Below are positions 8,791 through 63,875 of a stretch of DNA of 64,000 bases, piece by piece; positions within the stretch are counted from its first letter, which is position 1; each line of letters starts with the position of its first letter. The stretch comes from Macrotis lagotis (lineage: Eukaryota > Chordata > Mammalia > Peramelemorphia > Peramelidae), in the NCBI RefSeq assembly GCF_037893015.1, contig NC_133658.1:883555038-883619037 (forward strand). The letters run 5' to 3'. A program made the translations under genes and the position numbers. The notes under the pieces were generated by a model. It saw only the letters and a program-made list of their open reading frames with translations, was not told where the DNA came from and did no database searches.

Positions 8791-10572
8791 GAGAAGAAAA
8801 AAAAAATAGAATAACTAGAAAGATAGAATTTAAGCAACAGGAATCAAGTATAAGAGTCTGAAATATTTTTTTTAATTTAATATTTTCTTTTTCCAACAAT
8901 TACAAGTAAAAATTTTGTTTCTTAAAACTTTGAATTCCAAATTCTTTTCCTCCCTCTGAACCCCCCCCCATCGAGAAGGAAAACAATTTGATACAGGTTG
9001 TACTTGTATTATCATTCAAAACATATTTCTATGTTAACCATGTTGTGAAATAAAACAGACCAAAAAAGATATAGACAATATAGAAAAATTATGTTCTGAT
9101 CTTCATTCAGATTCCATACATTCTTTCTCTAGAGATGGATGGCATTGTTCTTTGACCACTGTATTGCTGAGAATAGCTAAACCATTCATAGTTGATCATC
9201 ATGCAATATTGCTATTACTGTACATAATGTTCTCCAGGTTCTGTTCATTTCTCTTTCAATCAGATCGGGTAAGTCTTTCCAGATTTTTCTGAAAGCATCC
9301 TACTCATCATAATTCTTACAGCATAATAGTACTCCCATCATAATCATATACAACTTGCTCAGCCATTTCCCAATTGAGACATCCTCTCAATTTCTAATTC
9401 TTTCCCTTCACTAAAGAGCTACTAAGTATTTTTCCTTTGTTTTTTATCTCTTGGGACACAGACCTAGTAGTGGTATTACTGGATCAAAGGGTATGCATGA
9501 TATCATAGTCCTTTGGACATAGTTCCAAATTGCTTCACAGAATGACTAAATCAGTTCATAACCCCACCAATGGTGCAATAGTATTAGTTTTCCCACATTC
9601 CTTCAACATTTGTCATTTTCCTTTTCTGTCATATTAGCAAGGTAGGTGTGGGGTGTAGCTTATTTTGATTTGCATTCTACTAATCAATAGTTATTTAGAG
9701 CATTTTTCATAACTACAGCCTGATTACTTCATCGGCAAACTGCCTGCTCATACCCTTAAGAAATGGTTTCTTATTTCTATAAATTTGGTTCAGTTCTTTC
9801 TATATTTGAGAAAGAGGTCTTTATCAGTAAAGTTCATGCGTTGCACCTCCCCACCTCTCCCATTTTCAACTTCACTGTAAAAATTCTTTCAAGTCTTTTT
9901 AAATGTAAGATAATTTACCCCATTGTACCTCTCCTTTTCACTTCTCCTAGTGCCTTTCTCTTTCTCATCCTTTAATTTATTCTTTTGGATAATTTTTTCA
10001 TCATGGTCAACTCAACTGTATACTCTGTCTATGGACTCCTATCTGCCCTAATTAGGAGAAGGCTTTTGGATGTTATAAGTTCATTTCCATATAAGAATGT
10101 AAATGATTTAACCTTACTGAATCTTTTGTGATTTCTATTTACCGTTTTATGTCTCTCTTGAGTCTTATAATTGAAAGAAATTGGCTAATACAATCCTTTA
10201 TATCAGGAAAGCTTAAAAGTTGTTTCACTGACTATATTATCTCTTCCCCTGAAAAACCTTGTTTTGCTGAGATGATTCTTGGTTGTAATTCTAGCCCTTT
10301 TGCCCTCCAAAATATCCTATTCCCAGGCCTCTGATTCTTTAATGTGGAATCTGCTCAATCTTGTTTTATCCCGATTGCAGCTCCATGATATCTGAATGAC
10401 ATTTTTTGGACTGCTTATAACATTTTCTCCTTGACCTCTAAGCTCTGGAATTTGACTATAATATTCCTGGGAGTTTTAATTTTGGAATCTCTTTGTGGAT
10501 TCTCCTAAAGTCCATTTTACCCACTGGTTTCAGGACATCAGGAAAGTTTCCTTGATGATTTCTTGAAACTTG

Positions 10573-10748
10573 GGGGCGGCTAGGTGGCGCAGTGGATAAA
10601 GCACTGGCCCTGGAGTCAGGCGTACCTGGGTTCAAATCCAGTCTAAGACACTTAATAATTACCTAGCTGTGTGGCCTTCGGCAAGCCACTTAACCCCATT
10701 TGCCTTGCAAAAAACCTAAAAAAAAAAACCACCCTAAAAAAAAAGAAA
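10573..10748 (+). mobile_element. tRNA-derived SINE
   Basis: Complete copy; GAAACTTG is duplicated at 10565-10572 and 10749-10756. Confidence 0.92.
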
Positions 10749-10954
10749 GAAACTTGAAGGCTATGGTTCTTTTTTTGATAATGACTCTCAGGAAGTTCAA
10801 TAATAATTAAATTTTCTCTCCAGGTTCTATTTTCTAGGTCAGTTGTTTTTCTAATGAAACAGTTCACATTATCTTTGTTTTTTTATTCTTTTGTTCTGTT
10901 TTCTTGATGTCTCACAAATTCATTAGTTTCCACCTGCCAAATCTAATTTTTAAG

Positions 10955-10968
10955 GAGTTGTTTTCTTT
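10955..10968. repeat. Target-site duplication, left copy (PSME3 retrocopy)
   Basis: GAGTTGTTTTCTTT, identical to 11708-11721 on the other side of the retrocopy. Confidence 0.9.
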
Positions 10969-11707
10969 TTCTTTTTTAGAAACCAATTTGGCTCTTATAA
11001 TGTAATATCTAGAAATCTGGTCCAGATAAGATGCAGCTTCACTCTCCAGTCCTTAATTCTGCAACTGTCTCCTCCTGGATGGATACACCAAAGTTATATC
11101 CCTGGGGATAAGGAGCTGAACCCACATTTTGACCGTGCTGCATTTTTCGATCAACAGTTGGATTTCAGGTTTCACCTTTTCAAGTATGTCTACCGACTGC
11201 TGGTTGCTTTTTAACATCCCATTAGGCATCACAAATACTTTAGTTCCCTAGAAGGCCTCCTCACACTCATCCTACTTCCTCTTCTTCAAATTGGGACCAT
11301 CCAATCCATCATAGCTATTGGTAAGGAGGATGGGATCAGGAACAGGGAGATTCATATCTGAGTGAATCTGAGTTAAATCATGGATGTTTAAGATAGGCTC
11401 CTTCAACAAACTATCAAGTTCTAACAACTTCTTTGGGAAAAAATTTGCCACCAAGTCTTCTGCCTCACTTGTGATCTGCTCCCTGAAAGAATCAACCTTG
11501 AGCTTCACTTCCTGATCCACCTTCAGCAGGGAGGCCATGGCTGGGGCGGGCCACGTCCACTCAGCTGGGGGGAAGGGGTCTGGGGTGCGGACCGGAGGAC
11601 TTGAATATTCAAGCCGGCCTGTCTGGCTCCCTCACTTCCTTGCTGCTGCCTCCTGGGCACCTGCCTGCCTTCCTGCCTACCTCCCTGCTCGCTCACTAGC
11701 TTGCCCC
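10969..11707 (-). pseudogene. PSME3: Processed pseudogene of PSME3 (PA28 gamma), 3'-truncated
   Basis: From an ATG at 11538 the minus strand reads MASLLKVDQEVKLKVDSF and stays open for 88 codons, nearly identical to PSME3, the nuclear REG-gamma proteasome activator. Two in-frame TAG codons follow (in the KKRR-L-DECEEAF-Q region). Homology then continues through VMPNGMLKSNQQ, a roughly 13-nt deletion in the PRIEDGNN region, and a 2-nt deletion before the ESEAASYL-like segment. It stops at RAKLVS, about 60 residues early. No introns remain, and GC-rich 5' UTR is kept at 11539-11707. A 14-bp target-site duplication (GAGTTGTTTTCTTT, 10955-10968 and 11708-11721) flanks it, and an A-rich stretch follows the truncated end. 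This fits L1-mediated insertion of an internally primed or shortened cDNA. Not functional. Confidence 0.95.
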
Positions 11708-11721
11708 GAGTTGTTTTCTTT
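11708..11721. repeat. Target-site duplication, right copy (PSME3 retrocopy)
   Basis: GAGTTGTTTTCTTT directly after the GC-rich 5' UTR end of the retrocopy; identical to 10955-10968. Confidence 0.9.
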
Positions 11722-12812
11722 AATGAATTTTTGTACCTCTTTTTCCATTTGGCCAATTCTGTCTTTTAAGAGTTTTTCTCTTGAGTAATTTTTGTTAATC
11801 TTCTTCCATTTGGCTAATTCTGTGAACAGTACTTTTTATTTGATTTTTGTGCTTCCTTTACCATTTGGCCTACAATGTGGTGTTTTTTTAAAGGTATAAT
11901 TTTCTTCAGTATTTTTTTGTGCTTTCCATACTAAGCTATGACTTTTTTCATGATTTTACAGCATCACTCTCATTTCTCTTACCAATTTTCCCTCTCTTAT
12001 TTGATTTTTAAAATATTTTCTAAGGTCTTCCATGGCTTGAGACCAATTCATAATTTACTTAAAAGCTTTGAATGTGGTTTTCTTCTGAATTTGTGTTTTG
12101 ATCTTCCCTGTCTCCATAAGCTTCTATAAGAAGTCAGATCTTTTTTTTCTGCTCATTTTCCCAGTCTAATTCTTGTCTTCTAATTCTATGATAAAGTGGG
12201 GCTCTTCTTCCAGAAGGGAGGACTGTTCCAAGTTTCAGGGTTTTTTTGTAGCTAATTCTGGGGACTCCAGAAGTTTTAAGTTCTTCTAAGGTGGTATGAT
12301 CTTGGGAGAGGTTGTATTTACTACTCTCCTGGCCTTTTGCTCTAGTCTTTGAGTAACTACAGGAACTCTTCTTTAAGTGTGACCAGTCTCAGCTCACCTG
12401 TGAAAACAAACTCTACTATGCTGCTAATGTTCCTCCTCAATGAAAGGAAAGACTGAGACCCTAATCCAAAAGTGAACAATGCAACAAATTCCTGCCTCCC
12501 CACCTCCAGTGACAAAAAAGAACCCCTGTGAAGTCTAGAAGTCAAGACTGTCATTGAAGGAAAGAAAATTCATTTGGGCCCCCACTCTATTCCAATTAGT
12601 GTCAGTCAAACTGATATGATTTCATAGGAGTAGTAATTACAATCTCTGTATATTAGATCCCAGAGCTAGAAGTACAGATTATAAAATCATTGTGTAACTA
12701 AAGGAAGGTAGGTAGTGGCCCTCCACCCTTGTTTTGCCTTGTCTTGATGTCCAAGCCCAATGAGGTAGAGGTGACTCAAATATATGGAAAGTTCCAGTTT
12801 GTTTTTATACTT

Positions 12813-35910: not shown

Positions 35911-36905
35911 TTACCATTTAATCAATGGAAATGATATTAAAGAAGAGGCCTCAGATGTGAGACTGTAAGCCCCTGAAGAGCAAGGGCAGCAAAGGGCCAC
36001 AGTCCAGATCCCAGGCACTCCAAGAGACTTCCTCATAAGCTCACATCAAACCAGAGGACTTTCAGTGGCAATTCACTCACTTCTAGATCTATCCAACTGT
36101 TCAGCTTAGATTTTCTCACCATCTTTTCTACAAGAGTCTTTATCAAAAGCTCTACTTTCGCCATCTAGCTTCTGTATCTGATGCATCACAGTACTGCGCA
36201 GTCCTCCTGAAAGAAGAATCTGAGAAATGTTTACTACTAATTCTATCACTGAAAAGTGGTACAATGCCACTACTATGGCTGAGATGCAACAAGCTTCCAT
36301 CAAAAGACAAAGAATAGGGGGCGGAGCCAAGATGGTGACAAGAGGCGATCATGTCTTAGGCTCTCATAAAATCTTCGAAACTAAGGACTTTAACTAAATT
36401 TTCGAGAGACAGAACCCACAGAGGGACCCAGTGAGGCAGTTCTCCTACTCAAGATAACCTGGAAAAGAGCAGAAAGGCTCTGCTCCCCAGGGTTGGAGGG
36501 GTGGCCCACCAGAGCTAAAGAATTTCAGCCTCCTGGAGGCAGCCCCAGGGCGCTGGGAGCAGCTTGGCCACTACATTCCAGATCCAGCAAACATAAGCAG
36601 GCGGAGCTGATAAGCAGGAACCCCCAGGGCATTGAGCTGAGGGAAGGGAGTGAAGAGAGACTGCCTAGCTCTGTCCTCTGCCCAAGGAACAGGACTCTGG
36701 GGCTCTGACCACATTCAGATCCTGATCCCAGTCTAGGCCCCCCCATAGAACAGCAGGGGCCCCCTCCACCTCAGCCCCATGGCAGAGGGGGAGCATATGG
36801 TCTTCCACAGACCAGGAGGGAAGACAGAGCCTCACACACTGAGACCCTTGTGGGAGTGTCCCAAAAGCTCAGGAAGCACCCCCAAAACAGGCTTAGGCAG
36901 GGAAA

Positions 36906-37997
36906 ATGAGCAAGCAGAGAAAAAAGAGGAACACCATTGAGAAATATTTTGCATATGAGCCCAAGAAGGATCAATATACTCAGTCTGAAGATGAGGAAGC
37001 ACAAGCTCCTGCATCTAAAGACTCCAAGAAAAACAGAAATTGGGCTCAGGCTATGACAGAGCTCAAAAAAGACTTTGAAAATCAAATGAGGGAGTTAGAA
37101 GAAAAACTGGGAAAAGAGAGGAGAGAGATGCAGGAAAAACATGAAAATGAAGTCAGCAGTCTAGTCAAGGAAATCCAAAAAAATGCTGAAGAAAATAGCA
37201 TGCTAAAAACCAGCTTAGGTCCAATGGATAAAACAGTTCAAAAAGTTATGGAGGAGAAGAATGCTTTAAAAAGCAAAAGTGGCCAGATGGAAAAAAGAGA
37301 TAAGAAAACTCTCTGAGGAAAACAAATCCTTCAGACAAAGAATAGAACTCAGGGAGATCGATGAATTTACGAGAAATCAGGACTTATTACTTCAAAACCA
37401 AAAGAATGAAAAATTAGAAGAAAATGTGAAACATCTCATTGAAAAAACAACTAATATGGAAAACAGATTTAGGAAAGATAATTTAAAAATTATTGGAATA
37501 CCTGAAAGTCATGATCAGGAAAAGAGCCTTGACATCATTTTCAAAGAATTATTACAGGAAAATTGCCCTGATATCCTAGAAGCAGAGGGCAAAATAGAAA
37601 TGGAGGGAATCCACCAATTCCACCCCCCCCAGAAAAAGATCCCAAAAAACCAACCCCTAGGAATATTAAAGCCAAGTTCTAGAACTCCCAAGTCAAAGAG
37701 AAAATATTACAAGCAGCCAGAAGGACACAATTCAAATACCGTGGAGCTGCAGTCAGGATCACGCAGGACTTAGCAGCAACTACATTAAAAGCTCGTAGGG
37801 CTTGGAATATGATATACCGGAAGGCAAAAGAGCTTGGAATGCAACCGAAAATGAACTACCCAGCAAGGCTGAATGTCCTCTTCCAGGGAAAAAGATGGAC
37901 TTTCAATGAACCAGGAGAATTTCAAATGTTCTTGTTGGAATGGCCAGAGCTGAACAGAATGTTTGATCTTCAAATACAGGACTCAGGTGAAGCATAG
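36906..37997 (+). pseudogene. L1/HAL1 ORF1 (RNA-binding chaperone), frameshifted
   Basis: Three overlapping frames (36906-37316, 37279-37773, 37809-37997) together cover a whole L1 ORF1p-type protein: coiled-coil trimerisation region, RRM-like region and C-terminal domain. At least two frameshifts and a stop at 37314 break it. The intact protein would bind element RNA as a trimer. It is element-derived, not a host gene. Confidence 0.85.
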
Positions 37998-38512
37998 AGA
38001 TTGGAGGAGAAGGGGAAAATATGAGGGACTTAATGATGATGAACTGCATGTATTCCTGCATAGAAAAATGACACTGATAATACTCATGTGAACCTTCTCA
38101 GTTAATAGAGCAGGTAGAAAGAACTTTTATAGTTGAAGCACAGGAGAAAGCTGAATTCGACGATAAAAATATGGTATAAAAATGGAGTCAACAGAAAAAA
38201 GGGAAATGTAATGGGAGAAAGAAAAAAGGAGGGGGGCAATAGGCCAAGATATTTCATATACTAAGATTTTTCTTTATTACAATGAGCTATTGCAATGATA
38301 TGGAAGGGGGGAAGACAAGGGGGAATGAGGGAACCTTTGCTCTCATCAGAGGTGGCTAGGAGAGGAAACAGCATTTATACTCAATAGGGTATAGGCATCT
38401 GGAATAAGAAGGAGGGGGGAGCAGGGGGAAGAGGGGGGATGTGAATAAAGGAGGACAGGATGGACCATGGGGGGAGAGTGGCCAGATATAACACATTTTC
38501 TTTTTTACTTCT

Positions 38513-38650
38513 TGCAAGGGGCTGGGATTGGATGGCCTGTCCTGGACCACAGGGCCAGGTGGATGCTGGGCCTAAGGGGTGGTATGGGGGCTCAGGGCCT
38601 CTTGGCCCCAGGACCAGGGATCTGTCTGCTGCGCCACTCAGCTACCCTAC
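38513..38650 (-). repeat. Diverged antisense SINE module in HAL1 3' UTR (1 of 3)
   Basis: It aligns with the tRNA-derived SINE on the minus strand (the reversed box CTGCGCCACTCAGCTACCC is clear at 38626-38646) but is much more diverged than free SINEs nearby and unusually G-rich. Confidence 0.65.
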
Positions 38651-38837
38651 AGCAGAGTCAGAGTGAAAGGAGAGAGAATATATAGTACATGGTAGTGGAG
38701 AAATACAAAAGGAGGGAGTTGCGATCAGCAATGGCAACAGTGGAAAAATACAGAAGTAACTTTTGCGATGGACTTATCATAAGGAATATGATCCACCCAC
38801 AACAGAGTTCTTGGTGTTGGAACAAAGACTGAAGCAC

Positions 38838-38998
38838 ATTTTTTATTTATTATTTTTTTTGGGGGGTGCAGGGCAAATGGGGGCTGGGTGGCCTGCCTGG
38901 GGCCACACAGCAGGGTGATCATCGGGTGTCTGAGGCCAGATTTGGACCCGGGTGCTCCTGGCTCAAGGGCCAATGCTCTGTCCACCACCCAGCCACCC
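38838..38998 (-). repeat. Diverged antisense SINE module in HAL1 3' UTR (2 of 3)
   Basis: The full SINE outline is kept (GGCCACACAG, TTTGGACCCGGGTGCTCC, CACCCAGCCACCCC). Many A and T positions of the usual SINE are G or C here. The same module, at the same place in the 3' UTR, recurs in the element at 63008-63789. Confidence 0.75.
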
Positions 38999-39039
38999 CT
39001 ACTATTATTACTATTTTATTTTAGGTCTTTTTTTTCTTT

Positions 39040-39183
39040 TTTTGGTTTTTTGCAGGGCAGTGGGTTTGGGGTGGCTTGTATGTCACATGGCTGGGTGATT
39101 TTTGGGTGTATGGGGCCGGATATGGGCTCAGGTGCTCCTGGCTCCAGGGCTGGTGCTCCATCCATTGCGCCACCTGGCCATAC
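39040..39183 (-). repeat. Diverged antisense SINE module in HAL1 3' UTR (3 of 3)
   Basis: SINE-like on the minus strand, ending CATTGCGCCACCTGGCC. Counterpart of 63372-63508 in the other copy of this LINE tail. Confidence 0.75.
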
Positions 39184-39403
39184 CTACAATTATTACTATT
39201 ATTTTTTTTAATTTTAATTTTTTTCTCTCCCCTTTATCGCTCAAGCGAGTCTATATTTTTTGGAGGGAGGGGGGTATTTTGTTTACTCTTAAACAAGAAT
39301 ATTTTATTAATGTATAAAAACATTATTTGTACAAAATGAGAATAAATATTAAATATTAAAGTGAAAAAAAAAGACAAAGACTCTATGGCATGGCAGAGGC
39401 TTT

Positions 39404-52734: not shown

Positions 52735-53240
52735 TATGTAAAATTGGGGATATTCTTTTCTTTTTTCTTTCTTATTTTATTTTTCTCAATTAATTACATA
52801 TAAAAATAGAAATATACTTCTTTTTTCCCTCTTATTTTATTTCTTTTTTGCTCACATCCTGGTAAAAATGGGAATGCTCTTCTTTTTAATCTCTTTATTA
52901 TTTATTCCTCAATTTCATGCAAAAATGAAGACTCTTCTTACCTTTTCTCAATTACATATAAAAATGGGAATGCTCTTTCTTTTTACCTCTTATTTTATTT
53001 TTTCTCAATTACATGTAAAAATAGAAATATTCTTTTTTCCCCCTCACATTTTATTTCACTTTTGCTCACATCCTGGTAAAAATGACAATATTTTTCTTTT
53101 TTAGCTTTTTATTATTTATTCCTCAATTACATGTAAAGATGGGAACTCTACTTTTTTTCCTACTTTTTCTCAATTACATATAAAATGGAAATACTCATTC
53201 TTTTTTCCTCTTTTATTTTATTTTTTCTCAATTGCATTTA
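52735..53240 (+). repeat. Higher-order tandem repeat, left part
   Basis: AT-rich monomers of about 40-62 bp built on CTCAATTACATATAAAAATG plus a T-rich spacer. Four monomer types alternate. The GCTCACATCCTGGTAAAAAT type recurs at about 52850 and 53064, a higher-order period near 214 bp. A HAL1-like element interrupts the array at 53241 and it resumes at 56245. Confidence 0.8.
53227..53240. repeat. Target-site duplication, left copy (HAL1-like, minus)
   Basis: CTCAATTGCATTTA, identical to 56245-56258. It is also a monomer sequence of the surrounding tandem repeat. Confidence 0.9.
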
Positions 53241-54838
53241 TTTTTTATGGTTTATTTTTTATTATCTTTTCCTTTTTTTGGTTTGTTTATTTTATATTGT
53301 TACAATGATCTTGTTGTGAGAGTAAACATAAATCCCCCCTCCCAAAAAAAAGATGAGAAACCTCAAGAATAGTGAGAGAGAAAAAAATGTACTTCAGTAC
53401 TTCAGTTCAGATTCCAATGGCTGTCTCTGGGATGAGCTGTCTTCTTTATCATAAGTCCATCAAAGAAGTTGCTTCAGTATTTTTTCCCCAGTTGCTATTA
53501 CTAGCTGTGTTTCCTTCCACTCTATTCCTTCCCACTCTCATTTATTCTATTCTCTGTCTCTTCACCCTGTCCCTGATCAGAATTGTGTTGTATCTGAGTA
53601 CCCTCTCTTATGATCTTCCTTCTCTTCTACCACCTATTCCTCCCTCCCCTCCCCCATTCCCCCTTATCCCATCCCTTTCCTCTCATTTTTCTCTAGGGTA
53701 AGATAGATTTCTATACCCTATTAAGTGTATATGTTATTTCCTCTCTGAACCATTTCTGATGAGAAGGAAGGCTCACTCATTCTCCCTCACCTTCTCCCAT
53801 TCTACTCCACTGTAAAAGCTTTTTCTTGACTCTTATGTAAAATATCTTAGCCTCTTCTTCCTCTCCTTTCTCTTCCTCCCAGTACTTTCCTTTATCACCC
53901 ATTGATTCCATCTTTTTACTATATTATACCATTATATTCAGTTCCTTCCTGTGCCTTGTCTATATGCTCCTTCTAACTGCTTTGCAAATGAGAAAGTTCA
54001 TATGTTATCAGTATCTTCTTCCCATGCAGGAATACAAACAGTTCAACATCATTAAATTCCTCAGAATTAGTCCTTCTTTTCCACCCCCTCCTATGGCTTC
54101 CCCAGAGTCCTGTACTTGGAGATCAAACTTTCTGGTCAGCTCTGATTGTTTCAATAGGAAAGTCTGAAAGTCCTCTGTTTCATTGAAAGTCCATCTTTTC
54201 TCCTGTTCAGTTTTTCTGGGTAGTTGATTCTCAATTGTAAACCAAGATCTTTTGCCTTCTGGAATATCATATTCCAAGCCCTATGAGCCCTTTAATGTAG
54301 ATGCTGCCAGATACTGTTTAATCCTGTCTATAGAGTTGATAGTTGAATTGTTTGTTTCTGGCAGCTTTTAGTATTTTCTCTTTGATTTAGGAGTTTGGAG
54401 TTTGGCTATAATATTCTGAAAGTTTTTCTTTTGGGATCTCTTTCAGGGGGGTGATTGTTGAATTCCCTCAATTTCTATTTTACCCTCTGCTTCTAGGATC
54501 TCAGGGGAATTTTGCTGTATCGTTTCTTGAAAAATGAAGTCTAGTCTCTTTTCCTAGTCATGACTTTCAGGTAGCCCAATAATTTTTAAATTATCTCTTC
54601 TGGGTCTGTTTTCAAGGTCAGTTGTTTTCCAATGAGATATTTCATATTTTCTTCTAACTTTTGTTTTTTCTTTGGAATAGTTTTATTTCTTCTTGATTTC
54701 TTGCAAAGTTGTCAGTTTCCTTTAGTTATTTTCTTCAGAGAGATTTTTAAATCTCTTTTACTACCTGGCCAATTTTGCTTTTTAAGGCATTCTTCTCATT
54801 TGCCTTTTTGTGTTGATTTTTCCATTTGGCCTAAACTG

Positions 54839-54993
54839 TTTTTTTTTTTTAGGATTTTGCAAGACAAACGGGGTTAAGTGGCTTGCCCAAGGCCATATGA
54901 CTAGGTAATCACTTAGTGTCTGAGACTGGATTTGAACCCAGGTATTCCTGACTCCAGGGCCAGTGCTCTATCCACTACACCACCTAGCCACCC
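54839..54993 (-). mobile_element. tRNA-derived SINE inside HAL1 ORF1
   Basis: T-run at left and reversed A box at right. CCTAAACTG is duplicated at 54830-54838 and 54994-55002. It postdates the HAL1 copy. Confidence 0.9.
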
Positions 54994-55018
54994 CCTAAAC
55001 TGATTTTTAACATATTAT

Positions 55019-55177
55019 TTTTTTTTTTTTAGGTTTTTGGCAAGGCAAATGGGGTTAAGTGGCTTGCCCAAGGCCACACAGCTAGGTAATTATTAAGTGT
55101 CTGAGACCGGATTTGAACCCAGGTACTCCTGACTTTGCAAGGCTGGTGCTTTATCCACTACGCCACCTAGCCGCCCC
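55019..55177 (-). mobile_element. tRNA-derived SINE inside HAL1 ORF1
   Basis: Young-looking copy with AACATATTAT (55009-55018) and AACATGTTAT (55178-55187) as a one-mismatch duplication. Confidence 0.9.
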
Positions 55178-56244
55178 AACATGTTATCTTCTTCTGTATT
55201 TTTTTGTGTTACTTTCACCAAGCTGCTGATTTGGTATTCATGATTTATCTGCATCATTCTCATTTCTCCTCCCAATTTTTCCTCTACCTCCCTTAATTGC
55301 TTTTCAAAGTCTTTTTTGAGCTCATCTATAGACTGAACCCATTTTCTATTTCTCTTGGAGGTTTTGGGTACAGAAGCTTCGATTTTGTCATCTTCTATGG
55401 TCAGATTCTTTTGTCATCTTCTGAATCTTCCATGGGACCAAATTTTCTATGGTCAGATTCTTCTTTTTCTGTTGTTTGCTCATTTCCTCAGCCTGTGACT
55501 GATTTACCACACTTCTAAGGCTTTGGAGGGGTTTTGGGGACATTTCACAGGGACCTCAATTCCTCCAAGTTCTCATGAGAAGTTCTGACTGCTCTCTTGC
55601 CTGTGCTCTGGGATGTGGATGAACACAGGCCCTCCCCTCTGCCCTGAAGCTTTGAGGATGAGCCCTGCTCAGTTATAGTAGTGTGGAAGCCCAAACTGCA
55701 ACCTGGATCTGAGTGTGGGCAAACAGCTGAGTCCTGCCCCAGGGAGAGCAGAGAGACCTCTGCAGTCTCCCCCAACTCCCTTACCATCTGTGAGCTGTGT
55801 TCTGTAGATGCTGACTGGCTTCCCCGATTCCTGCTGCAGGTTCTCACTGCAGGGCTGAGGCTAGTGTTCACACTCACTCTGGTATGGCAGAGTTCTCTCA
55901 CCGCCCCTTCAAGCTGTTCCCCGTGATTCCTAGGCCAGGGGGTCTGAAAATCACCCCCTCTGCCATAGACTCAGGCACCCCTAGGGCCCTGGCCCTGCAC
56001 TGCTCAGCAGTGACTTTTTCCAACCCCTGGTCCCAATGAAACAGACCTTTCCTGTGGAACTTCTATGTTGTCTTAGACTGGAAAATTGTATCACTCAGTC
56101 TTTTTGTGGGTTCTGCCCCCTCTAAATTTTGACTTGAGTCGTAATTTGACACTTTTGGGAGATTTTGGAGGAACAAGTTTCCAGGAATTCCTGATTTCAC
56201 ACCGCCATCTTAGTTCTGCCCCCATCTTAGTTCTGCCGCCCCCC

Positions 56245-56258
56245 CTCAATTGCATTTA
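56245..56258. repeat. Target-site duplication, right copy (HAL1-like, minus)
   Basis: CTCAATTGCATTTA, identical to 53227-53240, where the tandem repeat resumes. Confidence 0.9.
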
Positions 56259-56410
56259 AAAAATGGAAATACTCTTCTTCCCCCCCCCCTTATTATTTTA
56301 TTTCATTTTGCTCACATCCTGGTAAAAAATGGGAATACTCTTGTTTTTTAACTCTTTATTATTTATTCCTCAATTTCATGTAAAAATGGAAACTCTTTTT
56401 CTTACTTTTA
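56245..56410 (+). repeat. Higher-order tandem repeat, right part
   Basis: Continuation of the array after the HAL1 insertion. The next GCTCACATCCTGG monomer is at about 56310; removing the insertion and one duplication copy puts it about 228 bp after the previous one. Ends in the TTTCATGTAAAAATGGAAAC monomer. Confidence 0.8.
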
Positions 56411-56810
56411 ATACCCCTCAAGCAGGTCAGAATAACTTGTAACCAGAGAACAGATAATGTGTTGCTGCTGTTATTTTAAACATTGTTGAGTCATCCATTT
56501 TGTAAAGTGGAATTTGAAGTCTAAGAGACCAAATAGCAACAAAGATCTAAAACTTTATTAGTATCAGTATCATATGCATCAGTTTTGTTCCAAAGATAAG
56601 AATTTCAGTGTCATAGATTTTCTTCAAGGACAGTGACCTATGAACTGTCTTGTGTTACCTCAAATAAAGGTAAATTTTATCTAGTTTTATTATTTAATGT
56701 GGAATTAACATATATTTGTGGAACTTATCCTGAAGTACAGGTATATTTTGCATGATTTACTCACTTGATGAGACTGTTCTTTACATACAATTTAGAATTA
56801 ATTAATGATT

Positions 56811-62735: not shown

Positions 62736-63182
62736 ACAATTTTTATAAAAGAAAACATTCTATAGTCCTGCCCCCAGAGGGTTACCTCCCTTCTCTCACA
62801 GAAGTTGGACTACATGGTCAATCTGTTGGTTTCTTTTGCTTTAAAGATATTTCTTTGTTAGAAGGGAAGAAGCTCTATGTATTTGGATAGATTGTTCCTT
62901 CTTTTGGTGGGGAGGCCTTTTGCCTCAGAGTCAGGAAAGTTTCCATTCTTGCCTCTGATTCATACTGGGCAAGTCACTTAACTTCTGGGTATCCCAGGCA
63001 AACTTTTTAAAAATTTTTAATTTTTATTTTTTAATCATATTTATTTTATTTTTGTGCAAATTATTTTTTATACATTACTAAAATATTCTTAAGAGTAAAC
63101 ATAATACCCCTCCCCCAAAAACATAAGACCCTCATGAGCAATAAAGGAAAGAGAAAATAATTAAAATTAAAATAAAAAAATA

Positions 63183-63328
63183 GGGACGGCTAGGTGGCGC
63201 AGTGGATAAAGCACCGGCCCTGGAGTCAGGAGTACCTGGGTTCAAATCCAGTCTCAGACACTTAATAATTACCTAGCTGTGTGGCCTTGGGCAAGCCACT
63301 TAACCCCATTTGCCTTGAAAAAACCTAA

Positions 63329-63330
<2 letters not shown>
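63183..63330 (+). mobile_element. tRNA-derived SINE
   Basis: Close to the window's SINE consensus: A box GGTGGCGCAGTGG, B box GGTTCAAATCC, tail CCTTGAAAAAACC. Followed by (AAT)n at 63330-63369. It has no counterpart in the 36.3-39.4 kb copy, so it is a later insertion. Confidence 0.9.

Positions 63331-63369
<39 letters not shown>
63330..63369 (+). repeat. (AAT)n microsatellite
   Basis: About thirteen perfect AAT units after a SINE tail. Confidence 0.95.
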
Positions 63370-63371
<2 letters not shown>

Positions 63372-63508
63372 GGGGCAGCTAGGTGGCGCAGTGGATGGAG
63401 CACAGGCCCTGGAACCAGGAACACCCAAGTCCAAATCTAGCCCCAGACACCCAATAATCACCCAGCTGTGTGACCCTGGGCAAGCTACCCCAACCCCAAT
63501 GCCCTGCA
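63372..63508 (+). repeat. Diverged SINE module within LINE 3' end
   Basis: SINE-like with cytosines replacing many thymines (CACCCAATAATCACCCAGC for the usual CACTTAATAATTACCTAGC). Counterpart of 39040-39183. Confidence 0.8.
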
Positions 63509-63563
63509 AAAAAAACAAACAAACAAGTAAAAACAAAATAAAATAATTATAATTATAATAATA

Positions 63564-63710
63564 GGGGCGGCTCGGTGGCACAGTGGACAGCACACCAGCC
63601 CTGGAGTTAGGAGCACCCAGGGTTCAAATCCGATCCCAGACACCCAACAATCACCCAGCTGTGTGACCCTGGGCAAGCCACCCAATCCCACTTGGCTCCC
63701 CCCAAAATAA
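63564..63710 (+). repeat. Diverged SINE module within LINE 3' end
   Basis: Further diverged SINE (CACCCAACAATCACCCAGC). Counterpart of 38838-38998. Confidence 0.8.
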
Positions 63711-63875
63711 TAATAATTAAAAAAAGTGCTTCAGTCTGTTCCAACACCACCAGCTCTGTCACGGGTGGATCACATTCTTTACGATAAGTCCAGGCAAACT
63801 TTTAAGACAGTGGTTCTCAAAATTTGGTTGGAGATAGAGAGAAAAAAGTAGTTAAGTATATATCACCTAATATGG

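Follow-up and report, generated by a model that had tools for sequence, protein, structure and literature searches.

A HAL1 retrotransposon lineage with captured antisense SINEs that carry strand-specific A-to-G hypermutation, consistent with RNA editing that became heritable

The window analysed here, a continuous stretch of 64,000 nucleotides, contains three copies of an L1-derived retrotransposon. Copy 1 (36314..39368, plus strand) consists of a 5' UTR, an L1-type ORF1, a 3' UTR with three SINE modules and a poly(A) tract, and is flanked by the target-site duplication AAAAGACAAAGA (36302-36313 and 39369-39380; checked for copy 1). The frame of its ORF1 (36906..37997, plus strand) is broken into three overlapping open pieces, the last of which contains the L1 dsRBD-like domain PF17490 (Pfam, E 5e-07), while Pfam returned no match on the other two. 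The C-terminal half of ORF1 is 72% and 67% identical to the corresponding part of two autonomous L1s; no ORF1 match was found in a third region that was fetched. ORF2 is absent between ORF1 and the 3' UTR, which starts right after ORF1. Copy 2 (53238..56230, minus strand) resembles copy 1 in these respects, both being about 3 kb long with an ORF1 and without an ORF2, and the two are therefore HAL1 ('half-L1') elements. In the searched genome of 3.66 Gb, the end of ORF1 lies just upstream of the 3' UTR in 29 of 30 loci recovered with the spacer probe described below, with only the last 36 bp kept in L010. The first-pass annotation had proposed a LINE subfamily that captured SINEs and spread with them; capture and amplification stand, but the element at 36.3-39.4 kb is a HAL1 and not a LINE with both reading frames.

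The SINE and L1 types of the window are presumably marsupial, judging from their look, and ARAGORN found no tRNA in it. HAL1 elements as a class are already known, and as far as the available parts of PMC5753468 and PMC5322556 describe them, they share with the copies studied here the L1-type ORF1, the lack of ORF2, the 3' UTR with poly(A) and the target-site duplication, but the 3' UTR analysed here differs in bearing captured antisense SINEs. No report of a HAL1 with captured SINEs was found in the literature searched, which excluded most subscription papers. The genome also has L1 copies with ORF2 reverse transcriptase domains, and six high-scoring ones (L059-L064) share 3' ends that are 94-97% alike and include a short 3' UTR unrelated to that of HAL1. 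An autonomous L1 sharing the HAL1 3' UTR was looked for among them and rejected, as 0/6 of these fetched 3' ends of high-scoring RVT_1 matches fit the UTR body; they match the HAL1 3' UTR only in SINEs, and the six represent one young L1 group, so that an older autonomous donor may still exist. One of them (L064) contains extra L1 pieces in inverted orientation.

Alignment with the other SINEs of the window identified three modules in the 3' UTR of copy 1, all on the minus strand and antisense to HAL1: module A (38513..38645), the oldest by divergence and the one with a family-wide target-site duplication, module B (38866..38999) and module C (39045..39185). A and B are separated by a SINE-free HAL1 spacer (38646..38840, plus strand). 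Copy 3 (63002..63795, minus strand) is the 5'-truncated 3' end of a member of an older module-bearing subfamily. By the same alignment it carries module B (63564..63692, plus strand, antisense to its minus-strand HAL1), module C (63373..63513, plus strand) and a nearly canonical SINE, D (63184..63331, plus strand), in the same orientation as the modules; its truncation falls inside the A-B spacer, so that the position of A lies outside the copy. Two modules had been noted before at matching positions in the copies at 36.3-39.4 and 63.0-63.8 kb, and these positions hold, but the number does not, since copy 1 has three. Their absence from the copy at 53.2-56.2 kb was borne out for its 3' UTR, where both the A site and the B/C site are empty. 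SINE D is 94.8% identical to a standalone SINE and was not found in the remaining HAL1 copies aligned, and is therefore a later private insertion in copy 3. With A-to-G (A>G) changes at 0/29 adenines it is a built-in unedited control.

The SINEs are putative CORE-SINEs of the WSINE1 type, which they resemble in their CORE-like middle and A-rich tail. Late SINE copies in this genome have target-site duplications. Marsupial tRNA-CORE SINEs such as WSINE1 are known (available part of PMC3403934), and the HAL1 modules differ from marsupial CORE-SINEs in having lost about half of the adenines on their antisense strand.

Several further repeats lie in the window. The ORF1 region of copy 2 contains two nearly canonical SINEs (54843-54994 and 55020-55177) in the same orientation as their host, with 1 and 0 of 29 adenines changed to G and with target-site duplications of their own (cctaaactg; aacatattat/aacatgttat), which are ordinary late insertions. 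Copy 2 adjoins a tandem array (52943-53237; period 57, 5.3 copies, units like 'ctcaattacatgtaaaaatg'), and array-like units can be seen by eye on its other side (56240-56420), so copy 2 may have inserted into the array. The minus strand at 9847-12048 holds more L1/HAL1 fragments of ORF1-like and 3' UTR sequence, whose identity to copies 1 and 2 is about 66-75%.

To assess how widely the modules are shared, we searched the genome with several queries, scoring only the best 40 candidates of each search. With the 671-bp module region as query, each of the 40 scored matches (self included) began at query base 1-3, ended at 670-671 and was 90-100% identical. The SINE-free spacer (38700-38865) was chosen as a probe that avoids bias; it gave 2,807 first-look candidates, of which the best 40 were scored and 30 loci were cut out (self included). 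The first-pass annotation had suggested counting the 3' UTR copies with modules at the same junctions, and this count, made with the SINE-free probe, gave 30/30 for B and C (C being mostly deleted in L028) and 29/30 for A, the exception being L025. With copy 3 as query, all 40 scored matches (self included) ran along most of B and C at 79-100% identity and represent the older subfamily. With copy 2 as query, all 40 (self included) ran uninterrupted through both sites at 85-100% identity, and the four that were read have no SINE inside. Copy 2 belongs to a SINE-free family, a sister of the module-bearing one.

When the flanks of the B/C site were joined into one query, 6 of the 40 scored matches read straight through, and three such copies that were fetched (L080-82) have A present and B and C absent. 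At the B/C site of 11 further copies there is one module in 4/11 and two in 7/11. Empty sites are thus available for both A and B/C in copy 2 and L106-109, and for B/C in L080-82, and copies occur without any module, with A alone, with A and one more module, or with A+B+C. These states indicate that the SINEs were captured stepwise and then amplified along with HAL1; as a sequence fact the chimeric HAL1 is certain, and chance is excluded as the cause of the shared junctions.

The inference of capture followed by spread was upheld by three observations: the junctions agree among the loci read throughout the genome, the divergence of modules between copies is about that of the flanking HAL1 body (mean identity to copy 1 in the young set, 0.907-0.924 for modules and 0.917-0.940 for the body), and the A duplication is found family-wide and not per copy. 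Differing junctions or duplications around individual copies, the signs of independent later SINE insertions, were sought for A, B and C and none were found, D alone being private and later. Later insertions into HAL1 copies do happen, as illustrated by D in copy 3, by the two SINEs with their own duplications in copy 2 and by one in L104, but for A, B and C an origin of this kind without capture is refuted by junctions and internal states common to dozens of unlinked loci, and we give it practically no credence.

Two loci found in these searches deserve a separate mention. In L020 (G000:C9:327309580), the 3' ends of two module-bearing HAL1 copies make up an inverted, tail-to-tail pair with about 20 bp between them, which would form a long hairpin if transcribed together. 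L072 and L073 (G000:C9:381705692 and 381672244) are HAL1 loci about 33 kb apart with an identical match profile, probably owing to a local duplication, as judged from the profiles.

The target-site duplication of A provides information on the order of events. It is perfect on both sides in L080 (TATAACACATTTT), and five SINE-free copies have an empty A site whose sequence is close to TACAACACA-TTTT. The right-hand part of the duplication is intact (ATTTTAG) in 3/3 A-only copies. Elsewhere among the module-bearing copies it is altered in 16/16 that retain the site, to ATTTAAG in 11 of them and to something else in 5, and the 36 young copies with a placed A no longer have it. Furthermore, A has 29 changes other than A>G, compared with 8 each in B and C, and no clear duplication was seen around B or C. 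Because A is more diverged, and because of the states of the right-hand duplication, A was likely captured before B/C. This order is likely and not proven, because a tree of the HAL1 body, in which module-bearing copies cluster with a support of 90, does not place the A-only copies at the base (48 sequences, built on the spacer, a portion of the upstream UTR and the 3' end, with L084 left out because of its low coverage and young copies thinned to 13).

The captured modules have an unusual composition. We compared the earliest available form of each module (for A taken from the A-only copies, for B and C from the majority of older copies) with the majority of other SINE copies as reference, reading the HAL1 sense strand. 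On this strand, A>G changes are present at 18/29 adenines in A, 16/29 in B and 16/29 in C, against T>C changes at 4/30, 3/30 and 1/30 (Fisher, 1.4e-4, 2.5e-4 and 8e-6, respectively). The reference adenines are conserved in other SINEs and G is therefore the derived state. Individual copies show the same: 48 copies of B have 35-59% of their adenines changed and 49 copies of C 38-64%, and in another 23 modules at the B/C site, which come from 16 copies, the A>G changes number 9 to 16. Among the modules read at this site none was partly or wholly unedited, the least edited one having 9/30, so that the onset of the process does not show in these copies. T>C changes are somewhat raised as well in A and young B (0.16-0.20 per site), and less so in old B (0.085) and C (0.045-0.070), compared with 0.038 in other SINEs. 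We consider it nearly certain that the captured SINEs underwent strand-specific hypermutation.

This excess is absent from the other SINE copies read. The comparison set comprises 42 copies, 20 of them from the window and including late insertions in HAL1 copies such as D; L070 and L075, which are HAL1 modules, were excluded. The number of A>G sites per copy is 0 in 23 copies, 1 in 14, 2 in 4 and 3 in one, and the pooled counts are 25/1155 for A>G and 46/1208 for T>C. Some of these copies are only 70-75% identical to the query, yet have kept their adenines. An ordinary antisense SINE in the spacer of a module-bearing HAL1 (L104, 116-249) likewise has 0/29 A>G changes and is a late, unedited insertion.

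Could the modules descend from an old SINE subfamily, or several, with a higher GC content and with these G states in place beforehand, so that no editing took place in HAL1 at all? B and C share 14/16 of their A>G sites (p=1.4e-4), as a common pre-existing subfamily would predict, and such a source might lie beyond the best 40 candidates scored per search. We used a SINE probe with 10 shared G states, which gave 42 matches at 86-94% identity; 12 stretches were fetched, along with one second match inside a fetched stretch. This probe should rank a SINE with the G states first, but 7 of the 12 fetched matches are ordinary SINEs with 1-3 A>G changes and the other 5, with 9-14, all lie in HAL1 flanks. 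Every fetched match with at least 9 A>G changes is thus HAL1-borne, and no standalone SINE with the module G states was among the 12 probe matches read (of 42). Together with the adenines kept in the 42 other SINE copies, even at 70-75% identity, and with the range of 9 to 16 changes at the B/C site, which argues against a ready-made subfamily, this makes a SINE-subfamily origin unlikely in our view. Nor can one subfamily explain all three modules: the changed sites of A shared with B or C number 12 against 9.9 expected (p=0.11), an overlap close to chance which indicates that A changed separately. There were probably at least two separate episodes of change, and B and C may share one of them or be a duplication.

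The latter possibility, in which a single module was captured, edited and then duplicated in tandem to give B and C, would reduce the captures from three to two and would leave two independent events; it is compatible with editing and does not compete with it. The sites common to B and C suggest it, as do their similar ATT-rich spacers and the single module at the B/C site of 4/11 fetched copies. However, apart from A>G changes the early forms of B and C have nothing in common but 85 G>A and site 135, the latter being a position that varies in other SINEs too, and copies with a single module show a mixture of B-like and C-like states that could result from recombination between B and C. We regard the duplication as a serious possibility, although we lean somewhat towards separate captures.

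The HAL1 body provided a second control. Three comparisons gave A>G and T>C counts of 17 and 7, 8 and 4, and 54 and 25 (the last not polarised) in a body with 1.57 A per T, so that A>G exceeds T>C per site at most about 1.5-fold, as against about 5- to 17-fold in the modules. In young copies, A>G changes per site compare with T>C changes as 0.018 to 0.017 in ORF1, 0.024 to 0.014 in the spacer, and 0.018 to 0.018, 0.023 to 0.021, and 0.013 to 0.020 in other body segments. Since the bias in the body is low, an antisense RNA of the whole HAL1 is an unlikely pairing partner, and the limitation of the bias to the modules indicates a partner RNA limited to the SINE.

We also considered that hyper-editing continues in each new copy, which is unsupported for the young subfamily: singleton A>G changes in young copies occur at 12/1881 positions in modules and 114/18640 in the body, i.e. 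they are not raised in the modules, and thus no late per-copy editing is visible. When all minor alleles are counted, A>G is raised in modules (86/1881 vs 351/18640 in the body, p=1.2e-11), a pattern consistent with changes passed on within sublineages, whichever their direction.

L1 3' UTRs often contain G-rich tracts, and an explanation other than editing would be that selection drove the modules towards G, either because G-rich or G-quadruplex-like sequence was favoured in the HAL1 3' UTR or because signals such as premature poly(A) sites were removed from it. Indeed, several of the A>G changes create GGG runs, e.g. TTAAGTGG to TTGGGTGG. However, of the sites where an A>G change by itself creates a GGG run 12/21 are changed, a frequency no higher than that at the remaining sites (38/66). 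Changes from T or C to G are found at 5/68 positions in A and at 0/68 in both B and C, and this rarity, a near absence in B and C, fits a deaminase rather than selection for G. We therefore think selection quite improbable.

ADAR favours a 5' T or A next to the edited adenosine and avoids a 5' G. Grouped by 5' neighbour, the changed sites in the modules are 20/24 for T, 14/21 for A, 8/12 for G and 8/30 for C, i.e. 34/45 for T or A and 16/42 for C or G, keeping in mind that sites recur between modules and are not independent. The pattern is thus partly ADAR-like, with 5' T or A favoured but, given 8/12 at GA sites, without avoidance of a 5' G. The low rate at CA sites (8/30) may reflect later CpG decay.

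Taken together, ADAR editing with heritable fixation seems to us the best explanation of these observations, and one in which we have moderate confidence. A HAL1 lineage, derived from L1 and retaining only ORF1, would have taken antisense SINEs into its 3' UTR, first A and then B and C, and, presumably moved in trans by L1 ORF2p, would have passed each insertion to later copies, giving rise to the chimeric family. Early on, when the modules had just been acquired, complementary sense SINE RNA could have paired with the HAL1 sense RNA, and ADAR would have deaminated adenosines in the HAL1-SINE double strand (A-to-I). The partner may have been supplied in trans, as SINE RNA, or by a sense SINE lying further downstream on the HAL1 transcript itself; pairing among the three modules is not expected, since all of them point the same way. 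Reverse transcription would read inosine as G and so leave permanent A>G changes in new genomic copies. Only edits on the RNA that is reverse-transcribed are inheritable, and it is on that strand that the bias sits. Repeated cycles would act as a ratchet that brings the modules near saturation, because a G cannot be edited again, and leaves the unpaired HAL1 body normal. That the antisense modules paired with SINE RNA and were edited by ADAR, with the edits fixed by retrotransposition and L1 as the driver, is in our judgement fairly probable, if well short of secure. On balance we also incline to the broader proposition that RNA editing became heritable in this lineage and turned one way until the captured SINE had lost about half its adenines.

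The first-pass annotation had suggested that the modules could hybridise with SINE RNA. This suggestion gained unexpected support from the strand-specific A>G changes, although the pairing itself is deduced from them. Predicted duplexes of modules with SINE RNA have energies of -293 to -295 kcal/mol with the A>G changes alone, as compared with -300 kcal/mol; for the modules as they now stand in copies 1 and 3, where other changes have been added, the values are -153 to -248 kcal/mol. Editing as an escape from double-stranded RNA is unsupported, since A>G changes alone hardly alter the predicted duplex energy.

ADAR hyper-editing of inverted SINEs is known, and A-to-I edits are normally lost along with the RNA. 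According to the available part of PMC2873906, clusters of A-to-G changes are a hallmark of ADAR, the DNA editing reported for retrotransposons is G-to-A by APOBEC, with A-to-G discussed for RNA traces, and re-integration of edited retrotransposons is expected to be rare. The modules share with ADAR and APOBEC editing the clustering of one substitution type on one strand, but differ from the APOBEC DNA editing in that part of PMC2873906 in being A-to-G, heritable and common to a whole family. No report of a family-wide, strand-specific A-to-G rewriting of a retrotransposon or of captured SINEs was found in our search, which many subscription papers lay outside. A whole repeat family seems to carry editing in the genome, almost exclusively in segments with which an abundant partner RNA could pair. 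If this is true, DNA alone would tell which retrotransposon RNAs formed double strands in the ancestral germ line, the edited adenosines and their order could be read from it, and the family would preserve in the genome, like a fossil record, the formation of dsRNA and the activity of ADAR in the germ line.

As for the architecture of the element, SVA is a non-autonomous composite retrotransposon built from other mobile elements and amplified as a unit. The chimeric HAL1 is likewise a composite of mobile elements that amplified as a unit. In contrast to SVA, which is without ORF1 and in which the SINE-derived part is founding, here SINEs joined a working HAL1 lineage, apparently stepwise. A half-LINE that gains SINEs one after the other while still spreading represents a route to composite elements.

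Lastly, at the start of the antisense modules a T-rich run precedes a CAG or AAG that resembles a splice acceptor (38493-38518, 38846-38872 and 39022-39052), from which exonisation might conceivably occur.
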